In this document: positions 3,292 to 7,389 of the stretch, piece by piece
Numbering within the stretch: position 1 is the first letter of the stretch
Layout: each line of letters starts with the position of its first letter
Source of the DNA: Candidatus Bathyarchaeota archaeon
GTDB lineage: Archaea; Thermoproteota; Bathyarchaeia; TCS64
DNA: 59,314 bases
Direction: 5' to 3'
NCBI GenBank assembly: GCA_016783485.1
Contig: JADHWM010000003.1
Span: forward strand, 1 to 59,314
The notes under the pieces: model-generated
Told to the model about the DNA's origin: nothing
Database searches by the model: none
What the model saw: the letters and a program-made list of their open reading frames with translations, nothing else
Translations under genes and position numbers: made by a program

Positions 3292-3825
3292 CTATGAGCT
3301 GAAGTAGCCGTCGGCGTCGGTCGTCTCCGGCGGCAGGCCCCTCTCGACCCTCATCTTGGATTCCTCGCCTGCCAGGTACTCGAACCACATCCACCAGTCG
3401 GGGTTGTCGTATCTTTTCCTCTGCTCCTCGATCACGGGCCTCCACTTGCGCCACTGCATGGATGCCCCCAATCCCTGCAGCAGGTGGTAGACGGAGTCCC
3501 GGTCGATGAGCCCCCGGTGCAGGTGGTAGCCGATCCCGTCCAGGTATGTCCACAGGCGGTAGCGTTTGGTGTAGTTGTCCCGGTTCACCGAGGAGTCGTA
3601 TTTCCTCAGGAAATCGTCGTAGTCGGTATATTCGGCCTCGAGGAGTTCGGTGTAGTCGTTGAGCCACTCCTTGGTGAGCAGGTTCTCCCTCAGCTGCATC
3701 AGCGTCTGCGTCCTCCTGGCCTTGTTCGCGTTCCGTATGGTCAAAATGTAGTATGATAATCCCGCGAGGACCCCGAAGATGGCCACAACGTCCCGGGTCA
3801 TCTGCAGTGTGACTGGATCAATCAT
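3292..3825 (-). CDS. Small membrane-anchored protein, DUF4760-like
   Basis: 177 residues. One membrane helix near the N-terminus (about residues 12-30, VVAIFGVLAGLSYYILTI) is followed by a soluble helical domain rich in aromatic and charged residues (RRTQTLMQLRENLL, WLNDYTELLEAEYTDYDDF, WWMWFEYLAGEE). The layout resembles DUF4760-type proteins of unknown function that occur in many archaea, a match by general appearance only. It is co-directional with the MFS gene, separated by about 105 bases that include the MFS promoter, so it is probably an independent unit. Confidence 0.6.
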   Translation of the reverse strand: MIDPVTLQMTRDVVAIFGVLAGLSYYILTIRNANKARRTQTLMQLRENLLTKEWLNDYTELLEAEYTDYDDFLRKYDSSVNRDNYTKRYRLWTYLDGIGYHLHRGLIDRDSVYHLLQGLGASMQWRKWRPVIEEQRKRYDNPDWWMWFEYLAGEESKMRVERGLPPETTDADGYFSS

Positions 3826-3856
3826 CCTAGATCGAAGATTATGAGGTTGAACTGCG

Positions 3857-3871
3857 GAAAAGAGTATGGGG
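3857..3871 (+). repeat. 15-base direct repeat, left copy
   Basis: GAAAAGAGTATGGGG, identical to bases 6922-6936. The two copies bracket the lower-GC segment that holds the UDG-like gene and the small-gene array. The right copy lies in the conserved 3' tail after the last small gene, so this may be a relic of that tail rather than an integration scar. Confidence 0.6.
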
Positions 3872-3907
3872 GAAGGATGAAAGGTGAAGTGAGGGTAACA
3901 TTATGGA

Positions 3908-4525
3908 TTATAACGTCCATCCGAGTAGCTTAACCGCTTGAATTATGTCTTCCTTGATCATGCGTCTCTTACTTCGTTCAATAAAAAAGGCTGGACCCGC
4001 TTGAAGATACGAAGGAAACACACGGATCTCCCCGTAATAATACTCGTCTCCCCTGATCTTATACGTAGAACCGACTGGAATCACTCGTTCTCCCAGTCGC
4101 CGTTTAGCGATATAGTTGACCGCTTTGATGGCGAAATCACCCATGAGCATGATCACCTTGACGTTGGGGAAAAGGGCCAGTTCTCCTTCGAGGCGATGCG
4201 AGCAGTTCTTTATGGTTGCCGCTTTTACGGTGTATCCCTGTTTTCCGCATTTAATCGCTGTTGTGAAGTAGACTCCTCTCTCGACTAGGTCATTTATTGA
4301 TTCTACTTGGATTCCTGCGTCTTTGAATGCTTGGACTGTGGTTTGGCTGAAAAGGGATTCTTTTCCAGAGTAGTAATAGTCGGTGTGTTCGTGTGGGGCT
4401 GCTTCGGAGACCATGATCATCTGGATGGTTTCTGGGATTATCTCCGCTTGAGGTATGATGTACTTTGAATTGTCTACGTCTAGACATGGGAAAGTGGTGC
4501 AGCTTATGTGTTCACCCGGCTTCAT
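3908..4525 (-). CDS. Uracil-DNA glycosylase superfamily protein
   Basis: 205 residues with the fold signature of the UDG superfamily: IQMIMVSEAAPHEHTDYYY (residues 34-52) matches motif A (usually GEAPG), the central strand PNVKVIMLMGDFAIKAVN matches the second core strand, and VFPSYLQAGPAFFIERSKRRM resembles the C-terminal HPS-containing loop and helix. The catalytic and minor-groove residues differ from family 4 enzymes (SEAAP, PSYL), so uracil excision is not certain. Cys9 and Cys14 could belong to an iron-sulfur site but a full four-cysteine set is not seen. Its base composition is lower in GC than the flanking genes. The start ATG at 4525 has no strong ribosome site. Confidence 0.65.
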   Translation of the reverse strand: MKPGEHISCTTFPCLDVDNSKYIIPQAEIIPETIQMIMVSEAAPHEHTDYYYSGKESLFSQTTVQAFKDAGIQVESINDLVERGVYFTTAIKCGKQGYTVKAATIKNCSHRLEGELALFPNVKVIMLMGDFAIKAVNYIAKRRLGERVIPVGSTYKIRGDEYYYGEIRVFPSYLQAGPAFFIERSKRRMIKEDIIQAVKLLGWTL

Positions 4526-4590
4526 AGAAAATCCTCAGGTACAGTTACGGTGAGGTGAGCATAAGATTGTTGGATTCAAAGTTTGGACCG

Positions 4591-4711
4591 TCAAAAACGT
4601 TATAGACGTAAAGGATCAGTTGTCACTCAAGGTTCTATTGGTTAACTGGTGGAGTCCTAGCCCCGAGGTGGGGGGCTATACAAATACCAAGATAGAAAGG
4701 AGACATGAAAC
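4591..4711 (+). promoter_or_regulatory. Conserved leader, copy A (promoter plus hairpins)
   Basis: Begins TCAAAAACGTTATAGAC and continues GAT-rich sequence GGATCAG, CTCAAGGTTCTA and a hairpin AGCCCC-gaggtgg-GGGGCT (4659-4677), then ATACAAATACCAA and the ribosome site AAAGGAG nine bases before the ATG at 4712. The first hairpin (GGTTC...) is degenerate in this copy. The same element precedes three other small genes (5071, 5885, 6531). Confidence 0.75.
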
Positions 4712-5011
4712 ATGAAGGTTGTAAAATACTATGAATTTGCCGTAGAGGATCAAGATGAGATGTTTGAAAAATGGGGAAAGTATCTAGAAAAAAGTGCCAA
4801 GACGCCTGAGAAATATCCAACGTATATTTTTGGACCATCTGCGCTCGCCAAAGTTGGTGAATATATGAAAGGTATCTCGATAATGGAAGTTGACAATGAA
4901 GAGCAACTGATAAACTATTTACTCGAACTCTCACCCCCGCTCAAGGCCAAGTTTGAGCTCTTGTATGATGGCGGAAAGTACGTTCAAGCCTATATGACGA
5001 GGAAGAAATAG
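4712..5011 (+). CDS. Small alpha/beta-barrel-like protein, array member 1
   Basis: 99 residues, Lys/Glu/Tyr rich (KVVKYYEFAVEDQDEMFEKW). The alternation of strand, amphipathic helix, strand (TYIFGPSALAKVGEYMKGISIMEV), helix (NEEQLINYLLEL), strand suggests a ferredoxin-like dimeric alpha/beta barrel of the DUF3303/GYD kind; that is inferred from pattern only. The G-P-S-A-L segment recurs in other members of the array (SALG, GPGQ, GPFG). The start is fixed by AAAGGAG at 4697-4702. It is monocistronic: leader A before it and a T-run terminator after it. Confidence 0.7.
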   Translation: MKVVKYYEFAVEDQDEMFEKWGKYLEKSAKTPEKYPTYIFGPSALAKVGEYMKGISIMEVDNEEQLINYLLELSPPLKAKFELLYDGGKYVQAYMTRKK

Positions 5012-5037
5012 CTTGAAGAGTCAATGGATACTATCCC

Positions 5038-5070
5038 CATCTTTTTTCTTGAAACCCCTCAGAACTTTTA
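5038..5070 (+). terminator. Terminator and partial 3' tail, copy A
   Basis: CCCATCTTTTTTCTTGAAACCCCTCAGA follows the stop at 5011. It shares TTTTTTCTTGAAACC-CTCAGA with the tails after array genes 2, 3 and 4, but is truncated and runs straight into leader B. Confidence 0.6.
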
Positions 5071-5196
5071 GACTATCCAAAATGTTTTAGACCTGAAGGA
5101 TCCGTTGACATTCACGGTTCTACTGGCTAACGGTTGAACCTAGCCCCGAGTTGGGGGGCTATACAAGTACCAAAGGAGATGAGAAGTGAAACACAG
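5071..5196 (+). promoter_or_regulatory. Conserved leader, copy B (two hairpins)
   Basis: TATCCAAAATGTTTTAGACCTGAAGGATCCG is followed by hairpin 1 (GGTTC 5116-5120 with GAACC 5136-5140, extended by several inner pairs) and hairpin 2 (AGCCCC 5142-5147, loop GAGTTGG, GGGGCT 5155-5160), then ATACAAGTACCAAAGGAG. Hairpin 2 is almost identical to that of copy A, differing mainly in the loop, which points to conserved RNA structure. Confidence 0.8.
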
Positions 5197-5460
5197 ATGA
5201 CTATAGCACAATATTATTTCGACTGGAAGGGACCAAGAGACACAGTGAAGGAATACGGAGAGAAACTAGTAAAAGCCTGTGAGAAAACAGGAACCAAGTT
5301 CCATGGTATTTATGGACCCGGTCAGGACAAATGGAACTTTGTTGCTATGATAGAGGCAGAAGACATGCAAGAATGTATGAAGCCATTTCAAGAAGCTGGT
5401 GGTATGCCTGAAAACATGCCTCACTTCATCGTGAAGTTCTTCAATAAAGTCTACCCCTAA
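5197..5460 (+). CDS. Small alpha/beta-barrel-like protein, array member 2
   Basis: 87 residues from the ATG at 5197 (MTIAQYYFDWKG). The ORF-track start at 5134 (TTG) lies inside leader hairpin 1 and is rejected. An ATG at 5179 (MRSETQMTIAQ) is also possible but directly abuts the GGAG. Sequence pattern strand-helix-strand (KFHGIYGPGQDKWNFVAMIE) -helix-strand resembles a DUF3303-like dimeric barrel; W/Y and G-P-G positions parallel array members 1 and 4 and the gene at 56167. No catalytic residues can be assigned. Followed by a T-run terminator. Confidence 0.7.
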   Translation: MTIAQYYFDWKGPRDTVKEYGEKLVKACEKTGTKFHGIYGPGQDKWNFVAMIEAEDMQECMKPFQEAGGMPENMPHFIVKFFNKVYP

Positions 5461-5485
5461 ATATTCAATAACCTCCTTCCAGAAC

Positions 5486-5540
5486 CCCCCCTCTTTTTTC
5501 TTGAAACCACTCAGATGCTGATTCTAAGGATGATTACGAG
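5486..5540 (+). terminator. Terminator and conserved 3' tail, copy B
   Basis: CCCCCTCTTTTTTCTTGAAACCACTCAGATGCTGATTCTAAGGATG. The T-run should end transcription of array gene 2. The conserved sequence continues beyond the T-run (CCACTCAGATGCTGATTCTA), which a simple terminator does not need. Confidence 0.65.
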
Positions 5541-5600
5541 GAGTTCCATAGTTAGTTGTATATAATTCAATGAGGATTTCTTGAATGAGGAGGCCCATGG

Positions 5601-5837
5601 TTGTCAGTTAAAGACCGGATGGAGGACATGCTGAATGCGATCGAAGAGGCTGGCAGCGATGGTGTTGAGATGAAGGATCTGGTGAAGAATTACTATGAGA
5701 AATGGGGATTCAGGCTGTCTACCATCAAGGGTTATGTTCATGATCTCGAGGAGCTTGAGAAGGTCAGGATTGTGGGGACGAGGATCTACCATGCCAGCTT
5801 TGAACCTCCAAGGGGATTGGTTCGTTCCACCAGATAG
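5601..5837 (+). CDS. Small winged-helix DNA-binding protein
   Basis: 78 residues from a TTG at 5601, with GAGGAGG seven bases upstream. The sequence DRMEDMLNAIEEAGSDGVEMKDLVKNYYEKWGFRLSTIKGYVHDLEELEKVRIVGTRIYHA reads as a three-helix winged-helix domain with a short wing (KVRIVGTRIYHA). It is a candidate regulator for the small-gene array in which it is embedded, but it lacks the shared leader of its neighbours. A 20-residue Arg-containing tail follows the wing. Confidence 0.65.
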   Translation: MSVKDRMEDMLNAIEEAGSDGVEMKDLVKNYYEKWGFRLSTIKGYVHDLEELEKVRIVGTRIYHASFEPPRGLVRSTR

Positions 5838-5884
5838 TAGTGGGTTTCACGACACTAACATTGTTTCACATATAATCTTGTTTT

Positions 5885-5973
5885 GACTCTCAAAAACGTT
5901 ATAGACCCGAAGGATCAGGTGAAGTTCAAGGTTCTACTATGGTAGTGGAACCTAGCTCCAATGGGGAGATTAT
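5885..5973 (+). promoter_or_regulatory. Conserved leader, copy C (long perfect hairpin)
   Basis: TCTCAAAAACGTTATAGACCCGAAGGATCAGGTGAAGTTCAA, then GGTTCTACTA-TGG-TAGTGGAACC (5930-5952), a 10-pair stem with one G-T pair, then CTAGCTCCAATGGGGAG, whose second half also serves as ribosome site. The hairpin sequence differs from copies B and D but pairing is kept. Confidence 0.8.
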
Positions 5974-6354
5974 TTGGTTAAAGTGAATGGAAAAAAAGTG
6001 GAGTGGGATAGAGCACCGAATTTTGTGAATGATGTTCAGAGAAAGGTGCTCTGGAAGGACGAGAAAACAGGAGCTTTGTTCGCTATCTATAGAATCCCGA
6101 AGGGTCTCGACTCTAAAGAACAGTTTCCTCATAGCCATCCCCTTGCGAATCAATTTAGGTTTAACATTTCTGGAGAAATGGAGATGCCTAATGGCACAAT
6201 AATATCATTTTCAGAAGACGATTACGGATTCAATTATTGTCCTAAAAACGAGGAACATGGCGCTGTACCAAAGGGGGTCAAAGTCCACAAGGACTGGATT
6301 TACCTCCACTACTTTGATGGACCCGATGATTGGGATGACTCTGATAGGGACTAG
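5974..6354 (+). CDS. Small cupin-fold protein, array member 3
   Basis: 126 residues starting at TTG 5974 (five bases after GGGGAG) or GTG 5983. The core ALFAIYRIPKGLDSKEQFPHSHPLANQFRFNISGEMEMPNGTIISFSEDDYGFNYCPKNEEHGAVPKG reads as a single cupin barrel: HSHP supplies the first-motif histidines, E of GEMEM region the second, and EEHG the last histidine of motif 2. A mononuclear metal site is therefore likely; the reaction is unknown. Although the fold differs from the other array members, it carries the same leader and tail, so regulation rather than ancestry unites the set. Confidence 0.7.
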   Translation: MVKVNGKKVEWDRAPNFVNDVQRKVLWKDEKTGALFAIYRIPKGLDSKEQFPHSHPLANQFRFNISGEMEMPNGTIISFSEDDYGFNYCPKNEEHGAVPKGVKVHKDWIYLHYFDGPDDWDDSDRD

Positions 6355-6411
6355 CCGGTTATTCATGAGACTTTTTCTTCATAAATCATCAATGGACTCC
6401 TGCTAGCCCCT

Positions 6412-6465
6412 AATCCTCGTTCTTTTTCTTTAAACCACTCCTATGCTGAATCTAGTGAAGAATAG
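6412..6465 (+). terminator. Terminator and conserved 3' tail, copy C
   Basis: CCTCGTTCTTTTTCTTTAAACCACTCCTATGCTGAATCTAGTGAAGAA, about 60 bases after the stop of array gene 3. Same order of T-run and CACTC-GATGCTGATTCTAGTGAAGAA tail as copies B and D. Confidence 0.6.
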
Positions 6466-6520
6466 ATCATTGGGGATGAATGAGGTATTATACTTACCAC
6501 AATGCTTGCATATCTCATTT

Positions 6521-6609
6521 TGACTGTCCAAAACGTTATAGACAGGAAGGATCAGGTGAAGTTCAAGGTTCCGCTGAGATAATGGAACCTGGATCAGAGG
6601 TTGAAGAAA
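6521..6609 (+). promoter_or_regulatory. Conserved leader, copy D
   Basis: TGACTGTCCAAAACGTTATAGACAGGAAGGATCAGGTGAAGTTCAA followed by hairpin GGTTCC (6567-6572) with GGAACC (6584-6589), then CTGGATCAGAGG, which contains the ribosome site for the ATG at 6610. Copies C and D share an exact GAAGGATCAGGTGAAGTTCAAGG-type block upstream of the hairpin. Confidence 0.8.
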
Positions 6610-6870
6610 ATGCCTGAAATGAAATATTTCATCGTATACGCAAACTGGAAACCAGAAATTCAAGGACTAGACAGCGTGAAGGAAGCCATGGAGAAATACA
6701 CGAAAGTAATCGAAGAGGCTGGATGCAAAGTGAAGCTCTGGGGTTCAGCTCTGGGTGTTCCAGAGACTGCGCTAATCGTCATAAAAGGCAGTCCTGAAAA
6801 CTACTTGAAATTACTCCCACTACAGGCACCGTATACGAACACAAGAACCCATGTAGTGCTAACGTTCTAA
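6610..6870 (+). CDS. Small alpha/beta-barrel-like protein, array member 4
   Basis: 86 residues from the ATG at 6610, ten bases after AGAGG; the ORF-track TTG at 6601 overlaps that ribosome site and is rejected. MPEMKYFIVYANWKPEIQGLDSVKEAMEKYTKVIEEAGCKVKLWGSALGVPETALIVIKGSPENYLKLL follows the strand-helix-strand-strand-helix pattern of a ferredoxin-like dimeric barrel. The WGSALGVPE turn parallels FGPSALAKVGE of member 1 and GPFGTPEG of the gene at 56167. Function unknown. Confidence 0.7.
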   Translation: MPEMKYFIVYANWKPEIQGLDSVKEAMEKYTKVIEEAGCKVKLWGSALGVPETALIVIKGSPENYLKLLPLQAPYTNTRTHVVLTF

Positions 6871-6880
6871 ACAAAAGACT

Positions 6881-6940
6881 CCCCTTTTTTATGAAATCAC
6901 TCAGATGCTGATTCTAGTGAAGAAAAGAGTATGGGGACAG
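6881..6940 (+). terminator. Terminator and conserved 3' tail, copy D
   Basis: CCCCTTTTTTATGAAATCACTCAGATGCTGATTCTAGTGAAGAAAAGAGTATGGGG starts 11 bases after the stop of array gene 4. This is the longest tail copy and includes the right-hand 15-base repeat at 6922-6936 that is also found at 3857-3871. Confidence 0.65.
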
Positions 6941-6944
6941 GCAT

Positions 6945-7313
6945 CCACCCGTGAACCCTCCCCAAACAACCCTAAACACCAAAACAACCCACAAAACAAA
7001 CCCTGATAGAGGGGGGGAGGGGGGGGGTCATGCATCGGAACCTGAATAATCAATCCCTAGACGAAAGGAACCTGAAACCCCTCCCGATCACCATCGAATC
7101 ATGTCAAAAGGAGCACTTATACATACCCAAAAAACGCCCCACCAGAGGAGGCTCCTCCACAAGCCACAGAGGCTCCATTCATGCAACCCAGAAGCTATCA
7201 AGAACCAAACAACAACAAAACAAACCAGAAAAAACCCCCCAAAACCAAAAATAACCCACAAAACACCCCTAACCACACCACCCACCCCAGGAAAAAAATC
7301 CACCACATAAAAA
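6945..7313. other. Strand-skewed low-complexity spacer with G-tract
   Basis: The plus strand is almost free of G except for one tract of seven G, one A and nine G (7011-7027); the rest is C/A-rich (CCAAACAACCCTAAACACC, ACAACAAAACAAACC). Read from the minus strand this is G/T-rich sequence directly downstream of tRNA-Val. Track ORFs here (7030-7369 and 7088-7408) are simple-composition artefacts. No gene is supported. Confidence 0.6.
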
Positions 7314-7314
7314 G

Positions 7315-7389
7315 TGGGCCGGGCCGGATTCGAACCGGCGGCTTCCGCCTCGTAAAGGCGGCGTCCTAACCAGGCTGGACCACCGGCCC
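7315..7389 (-). tRNA. tRNA-Val (UAC anticodon)
   Basis: The minus strand folds into a complete cloverleaf: acceptor GGGCCGG/CCGGCCC with discriminator A, D arm GTCC-AGCCTGGTTA-GGAC, anticodon arm CCGCC-TTTACGA-GGCGG with TAC at positions 34-36, and T arm GCCGG-TTCGAAT-CCGGC. CCA is not encoded (ACTTTTT follows), and the T-run can terminate transcription. No intron is present. Confidence 0.95.

Follow-up and report, generated by a model that had tools for sequence, protein, structure and literature searches.

A short structured leader element occurs upstream of genes in many archaea as well as in a few bacteria; judged by comparative analysis of sequences, it is widespread and previously uncatalogued. 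Its widely conserved core consists of a hairpin (hairpin 2) and the 3' tail that follows it, and loop and tail appear to be in contact; both points go beyond what a sequence-only reading of the 59,314-nt stretch of Candidatus Bathyarchaeota DNA analysed here (the window) had proposed. Structure on the sense strand, compensatory change and a position upstream of genes give the element, as far as comparison can tell, the character of a cis-acting leader RNA, and on balance we favour the view that it represents a new RNA of this kind, acting at translation initiation or on mRNA stability. Structured leader RNAs have rarely been reported in archaea. This one recurs in uncultured archaeal groups and in bacteria, where it precedes dozens of genes, mostly of unknown function, and defines a candidate regulon.

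In the window, the leaders of four genes (A to D) had drawn attention, and all hairpin sequences named at the time are present in the respective copies (all features given here lie on the + strand). Copy A begins with a promoter block containing the TATA-like stretch AACGTTATAG (4582..4630). This block, like those of copy B (5067..5115, a AATGTTTTAG variant), copy C (5881..5929) and copy D (6518..6566), belongs to direct-repeat family D1 and was recovered by pattern matching in the genome. It is followed by hairpin 1 (4630..4658), which has 12 pairs including five G·U pairs and one bulge and was identified by folding and by a match to R1, a covariance model of hairpins 1 and 2; by hairpin 2 (4659..4677; AGCCCC-GAGGTGG-GGGGCT; R2 match at 4656-4690, E 4e-15); by the conserved 3' tail ATACAAATACCAA (4678..4690), near-invariant across 114 distinct sites; and by the Shine-Dalgarno sequence AAAGGAGA (4696..4703). 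Gene A (4712..5011) encodes a small protein of 99 aa, DUF3303-like by eye and with no Pfam match. Copy B comprises a hairpin 1 of the form GGTTC...GAACC (5116..5140; R1 match and fold), hairpin 2 (5142..5160; AGCCCC-GAGTTGG-GGGGCT; R2 match at 5139-5173, E 5e-14), the equally near-invariant tail ATACAAGTACCAA (5161..5173), whose CCAA could pair with the loop UUGG, the Shine-Dalgarno region AAAGGAGATGAG (5172..5183) and gene B (5197..5460), which codes for a small protein of 87 aa with no Pfam match. The TATA-like stretch described upstream of hairpin 1 is indeed found there and ends 25 nt before the hairpin in copy B. In copy C, a folding hairpin 1 with 11 pairs and a TGG loop (5929..5953) precedes a degenerate hairpin 2 (5954..5971) and gene C (5974..6354), a 126-aa cupin-like frame with a TTG start that matches Pfam Cupin_7 at E 4e-4, below the cut-off. 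Copy D has, according to folding, sequence and R1 search, a hairpin 1 of 8 pairs and no hairpin 2 (6566..6590), followed by gene D (6610..6870), encoding a small protein of 86 aa with no Pfam match.

Thus, the hairpin 2 that had been placed in front of the ribosome site is intact in copies A and B, as described, and only there: copy C retains a related hairpin that has lost the 3' tail, and in copy D it is gone. Outside this cluster, a second cupin gene (L003 on G000:C25, 1501-1937) shares the promoter block without either hairpin, both having been lost, and its reading frame is interrupted by a stop codon, which gives it the appearance of a copy in decay. As hairpin 2 is absent from copies C and D and from this relative, it cannot be a general requirement for these genes. 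On their own, leaders A to D are moderately unusual in folding energy (z values of -1.4, -2.8, -3.9 and -1.0, respectively), hairpins 1 and 2 of copy A folding with -22.0 kcal/mol. R1, which has copies A and B among its building sequences, matches copy A at 4628-4690 (88.2 bits, E about 1e-26) and copy B at 5113-5173 (70.1 bits, E about 1e-20), and it detects copy C with its degenerate hairpin 2 at E 8.5e-4, whereas copy D scores E 0.46.

That pairing is kept despite sequence change, as had been claimed, is beyond the reach of four copies alone and was demonstrated with a wider set of sites. The core follows the consensus NGCNCC-GARNNGG-GGNGCN and then TANAARTACCMA, that is a 6-pair stem, a 7-nt loop GARNNGG and an A-rich 3' tail, with a total length of about 32-33 nt. 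Among 72 distinct 35-nt sites, standard pairs fill 93.8% of the stem cells, and five of the six pairs show changes on both sides. Column pair 7-19 is GC, UA, CG or AU depending on the site. Cells changed on both sides number 43 as compared to 14 in shuffles, none of 500 shuffles reaching the observed count, and they drop to 10 or fewer when the partner strand is slid. Absence of covariation in wider alignments had been named as the outcome that would speak against an RNA; the wider alignment revealed covariation of the stem.

Mutual information with background correction, calculated for 114 distinct sites, ranks stem pair 7-19 first and the loop-tail pair 14-34 second, the latter being the strongest association outside the stem. 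Positions 14 and 34 are U-A in 47 of these sites, A·C in 53 and A-U in three. The association (Fisher 1.8e-22 overall) persists inside the non-Bathyarchaeal form (1.6e-10) and therefore reflects more than a split between two groups; shared ancestry could inflate the signal, and the site counts include related paralogues. The adjacent positions 15-33 and 16-32 are G-C in over 90% of cases and so nearly invariant that they give almost no covariation signal. Near-invariance across archaea and bacteria extends to the loop bases GA..GG and the tail bases TANAARTACC. These features point to a likely H-type pseudoknot, in which the loop sequence (U/A)GG meets CC(A/C) of the tail to form a P2 of two to three pairs with an A-rich third loop. 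We grade this fold as likely and not as shown, because the P2 pairs hardly vary and the A·C state is not Watson-Crick. An alternative register pairing GGUG with UACC was rejected, as loop positions 12-14 vary while the tail is constant, and the register 14-16/32-34 fits better. At four sites (L164, L168, L196 and L200), exactly 3 extra nucleotides are found between the hairpin 2 stem and the A-rich tail (GCGCTATGACATAAATACC); these variants would be consistent with a flexible third loop. Two further ideas were discarded. The 5' strand of hairpin 2 could act as an anti-Shine-Dalgarno sequence in the AGCUCC form, but this fails for the AGCGCC form. A leader peptide V-G-S-Y-T-N-T-K, read in one frame of the hairpin 2 and tail stretch, shows codon variation mostly at second positions with nearly constant third positions, and its frame is in phase with the downstream gene in some leaders only.

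A covariance search across genomes, suggested together with the original claims, located the element far outside the window, in archaea and a few bacteria. A pattern scan of 84,980 species yielded 27 stretches, which derive from Bathyarchaeota, a 'Thermoplasmata' MAG, Methanosarcinales, Methanolliviera, another Euryarchaeota MAG, Culexmicrobium, an Acetothermia bacterium and an Aegiribacteria MAG. We take the Methanolliviera and Methanosarcinales-type records to be relatives of ANME-1 (Syntropharchaeia). Covariance models detected the element in 12 genomes out of 32 from the window's order and, with stricter filters, in 4 of 398 genomes sampled from the phylum. In the euryarchaeal class around the Methanosarcinales record, 37 of 58 genomes carry it with up to 11 copies each, and in the class of the Acetothermia MAG, which itself has 9 copies, it is present in 2 of 100 genomes. 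The 'Thermoplasmata' MAG contains 22 copies. These genomes are almost without exception MAGs, and some may be chimeric. The 22 hairpin 2 sites of the 5.2-Mb 'Thermoplasmata' chromosome CP070751 (among them L107, L122 and L132) include both Bathyarchaeal and euryarchaeal forms, and this record may be a chimeric assembly. A virus origin was considered and rejected: of three scans of viral contigs for the core, two gave no match, and the third gave a single one that resembled a chance hit and had no gene following it. Scanning viral contigs for the promoter pattern described below likewise gave no match.

Searching the window with Rfam 15 returned only tRNA above the gathering threshold. At four element sites analysed with relaxed thresholds, nothing exceeded the gathering score, and one site showed a weak likeness to GP20-a RNA (RF02991; 20.9 bits and E 0.12 at L114, versus a gathering score of 47.2). 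GP20-a shares with the element a GC-rich hairpin, a GAGUGGG-like loop, an A/U-rich tail and a downstream AGGAGG; however, its tail has no CC, and it did not match the other sites tested. No earlier description of the element was found in the open literature, which omits most subscription journals.

With respect to genes, the element is placed with little tolerance. The distance from the end of the tail to the start codon has a median of 21 nt in the Bathyarchaeal form and 25 nt in the others, and 86% of the distances fall within 18-32 nt; that is, the element adjoins the Shine-Dalgarno sequence, and its end lies some 20-30 nt upstream of the start codon. An ATG-initiated reading frame of 80 aa or more that has a good Shine-Dalgarno sequence begins within 10-45 nt on the sense side at 85 of 168 sites and on the antisense side at none. 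In some relatives, hairpin 2 is located inside operons, a setting that the sequence-only reading had not noted; there it directly follows the stop codon of one gene and precedes a second gene (L054, L062, L069 and L112). Compensatory stem changes, sense-favouring G·U pairs, strict gene-ward orientation and near-constant spacing to the start codon together bear out the initial proposal of a cis-acting RNA. The genes downstream belong to diverse families, including DUF3303, GYD, SnoaL/DUF4440, tautomerase, cupin, FG-GAP, Hsp20 and a gp19-like tube protein. Signal-peptide-like N-termini, scored with a crude caller, are present in 94 of 115 proteins downstream of the euryarchaeal/bacterial form as compared to 53 of 163 control reading frames, and in 9 of 37 versus 6 of 81 for the Bathyarchaeal form. 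Among the genes inspected, no common pathway emerged, and hence no ligand can be deduced from context.

In Bathyarchaeota and a few other archaea, hairpin 2 is preceded by hairpin 1, in which sequence and apex vary while pairing persists. Distant hairpin 1 stems pair despite changed letters, exemplified by AGGTTTTACTGTTTC/GGAATGGTGAAATCT (L078) and AAGATTCTGC/GTGGGGTCTT (L128). The hairpin adjoining hairpin 2 is stronger than expected from dinucleotide shuffles in the Bathyarchaeal form (p = 3.6e-4) and weakly so in other forms (p 0.005). In 19 of 21 copies of hairpin 1 the sense RNA is more stable than the antisense RNA (mean of -12.4 versus -6.9 kcal/mol). This asymmetry is due to G·U pairs and provides evidence against a DNA palindrome. 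The aligned block runs from TTTGAC..TC.AAAACGTTATAGAC through GGATCAG.TGA..TTCAAGGTTC into hairpin 1 with its variable apex, hairpin 2 and the tail ATACAARTACCAA. The promoter pattern AAAACGTTATAGACNNGAAGGATC (24 nt, up to 3 mismatches allowed) occurs at 7 places in the window's genome, as compared to 0 for a reversed-pattern control, and is also present in 5 other genomes of the family. Some relatives have another TATA-like stretch (TTAAATA) at a similar distance in place of the promoter block and keep both hairpins, which is an argument for conservation of the hairpins in their own right. Given that the TATA spacing is conserved, hairpin 1 is predicted to lie at or near the mRNA 5' end. In one case (L017 on G007:C39), the leader breaks off directly behind hairpin 1, where it overlaps the 3' end of a convergent reading frame; a copying or cutting event at that point would give such a picture.

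Since the element sits at a near-constant distance upstream of the Shine-Dalgarno sequence, in the path of the initiating ribosome, the simplest explanation is that it controls initiation or protects the leader. We propose that hairpin 2 and the tail would fold up into a compact H-type pseudoknot immediately upstream of the Shine-Dalgarno sequence and that, in Bathyarchaeota and a few other archaea, hairpin 1 would begin at or close to the mRNA 5' end. Folding and unfolding of this unit, be it via a bound ligand, a bound protein or its own stability, may then govern ribosome access or mRNA lifetime, and to judge from its placement the element probably sets the translation strength of each mRNA. 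The controlled set would consist of scattered genes, namely those for small ferredoxin-fold and cupin enzymes in Bathyarchaeota and for secreted proteins in the euryarchaeal groups. With a length of about 35-70 nt, the element offers a test object for translation control that could expose a signal sensed by its hosts.

How active a part the RNA plays can be viewed in different ways. It could be a passive 5' stabiliser and translation enhancer, hairpin 1 blocking 5' exonucleases and hairpin 2 keeping the ribosome site accessible at a constant distance. The location of hairpin 1 near the presumed 5' end, the tight spacing to the start codon and the diversity of the genes, which include secreted and S-layer-like proteins that are maybe abundant, would all suit such a role. 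However, a passive part of this sort would require neither the near-invariant bases of loop (GA..GG) and tail (TANAARTACC) nor the association between positions 14 and 34, and we regard this account as plausible but more probably wrong than right. Even as a mere stabiliser, it would be a transferable module for keeping archaeal mRNAs productive.

Near-invariance of loop and tail beyond the needs of pairing is, by contrast, what a riboswitch would lead one to expect, in which the pseudoknot serves as aptamer for a metabolite or second messenger and the ligand hides or frees the Shine-Dalgarno sequence. Size and layout resemble the class I preQ1 riboswitch, an H-type pseudoknot near the ribosome site with an A-rich L3 along the P1 minor groove (PMC11625349): the element likewise measures about 33 nt, has a short P1 hairpin and an A-rich tail whose end probably meets the loop, and lies just upstream of the Shine-Dalgarno sequence. 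However, class I preQ1 riboswitches are diagnosed by UC or AC directly before the P1 3' strand (PMC11625349), whereas the element has GG at 15-16, each G in over 90% of the 114 distinct sites. It is moreover archaeal in distribution, lacks an Rfam match, and the downstream genes inspected (DUF3303, GYD, SnoaL, tautomerase, cupin-like and secreted) include no queuosine or preQ1 genes. The element is thus not a preQ1 switch, although by analogy it may work in a similar manner. Preceding broad and mixed sets of genes for signal-peptide-like proteins, the element is reminiscent of second-messenger switches, for example GEMM (PMC7266159), the c-di-GMP-I riboswitch, which also has many copies per genome before varied and often surface or secreted proteins, but sequence and structure are unrelated and the Rfam search returned no match. 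Outside bacteria, riboswitches have been called possibly rare, and the classes named as established there are crcB (fluoride) and TPP (PMC7266159). Both are cis-acting leader RNAs outside bacteria like the element, crcB occurring in archaea; they differ from it in structure and in serving specific metabolic or ion genes, and the element matches neither in Rfam. Against a riboswitch stand, besides this possible rarity, the lack of a common pathway or a ligand gene marker among the downstream genes and the fact that an alternative pairing that would hide the Shine-Dalgarno sequence was picked up by eye, in single leaders. Overall, we consider a riboswitch possible but rather unlikely. The more specific version, an archaea-centred new class, is put forward with slightly greater reserve still: as sensor of a metabolite or second messenger, an H-type pseudoknot of roughly 33 nt would regulate the translation of up to about 20 genes scattered over each genome in Bathyarchaeota, the Methanosarcinales/Methanolliviera-related class and some Acetothermia bacteria. 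If true, it would be among the smallest riboswitches known.

Constant loop and flank bases around a variable stem are also typical of protein sites, and with up to 22 copies per genome the element could be an mRNA site through which an RNA-binding protein represses or activates translation of a regulon. There is no candidate protein, however, and the occurrence in distant archaea and an Acetothermia bacterium would require that the protein travelled along, which makes this proposal doubtful.

Two readings without an RNA function are very improbable. The sequence-only reading had also considered an operator for a dimeric regulator, in which case the hairpins would be palindromes in DNA and the tail, which reads TATAAATA in the euryarchaeal form, a TATA box; a separate and strongly conserved promoter block upstream of hairpin 1 would be compatible with this, but the better sense fold in 19 of 21 copies, the 85 versus 0 orientation bias and the operon-internal sites disfavour it, C or G at tail position 26 in 44 of 114 distinct sites spoils the TATA box, and a transcription start 25 nt past the tail would sever the Shine-Dalgarno sequence from the mRNA. 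Recent tandem duplication or mobile cassettes of promoter, leader, terminator and genes, to which the recurrence of the upstream block and a downstream T-tract element around genes, the low-GC cluster beside tRNA-Val in the window and the L017 copy cut directly after hairpin 1 beside a convergent gene could be attributed, may be the route by which copies spread, but the downstream gene families are unrelated, and duplication does not explain compensatory changes and constant spacing across phyla. Repeated ends had also raised an integron/attC reading; a search for phage-integrase domains gave matches everywhere and hence did not discriminate.

The T-tract element, the second one conserved in this cluster, consists of a T-tract and then CTTGAAACCACTCAGATGCTGAWTCTAG; it is found after each of genes A to D and belongs to repeat family D4. 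It is located at 5042..5063 behind gene A (T-tract then CTTGAAACC.CTCAGA), at 5494..5529 behind gene B, at 6422..6460 behind gene C and at 6884..6922 behind gene D, all on the + strand. In 7 of the 27 family genomes it is scattered behind unrelated genes, and it is probably a terminator region. The gene cluster itself (about 3800-7200 of the window) has a GC content of 42-45% versus about 60% and ends beside a tRNA-Val gene (7314-7389), as would be the case in an acquired island. Between genes B and C, a reading frame of 78 aa (5601-5837) is winged-helix-like by eye with no Pfam match, and a close relative is located near similar leaders in L018 (G007:C50). Finally, short GCGCGC runs recur in AT-rich intergenic DNA near copies on G000:C25, C37 and C54.
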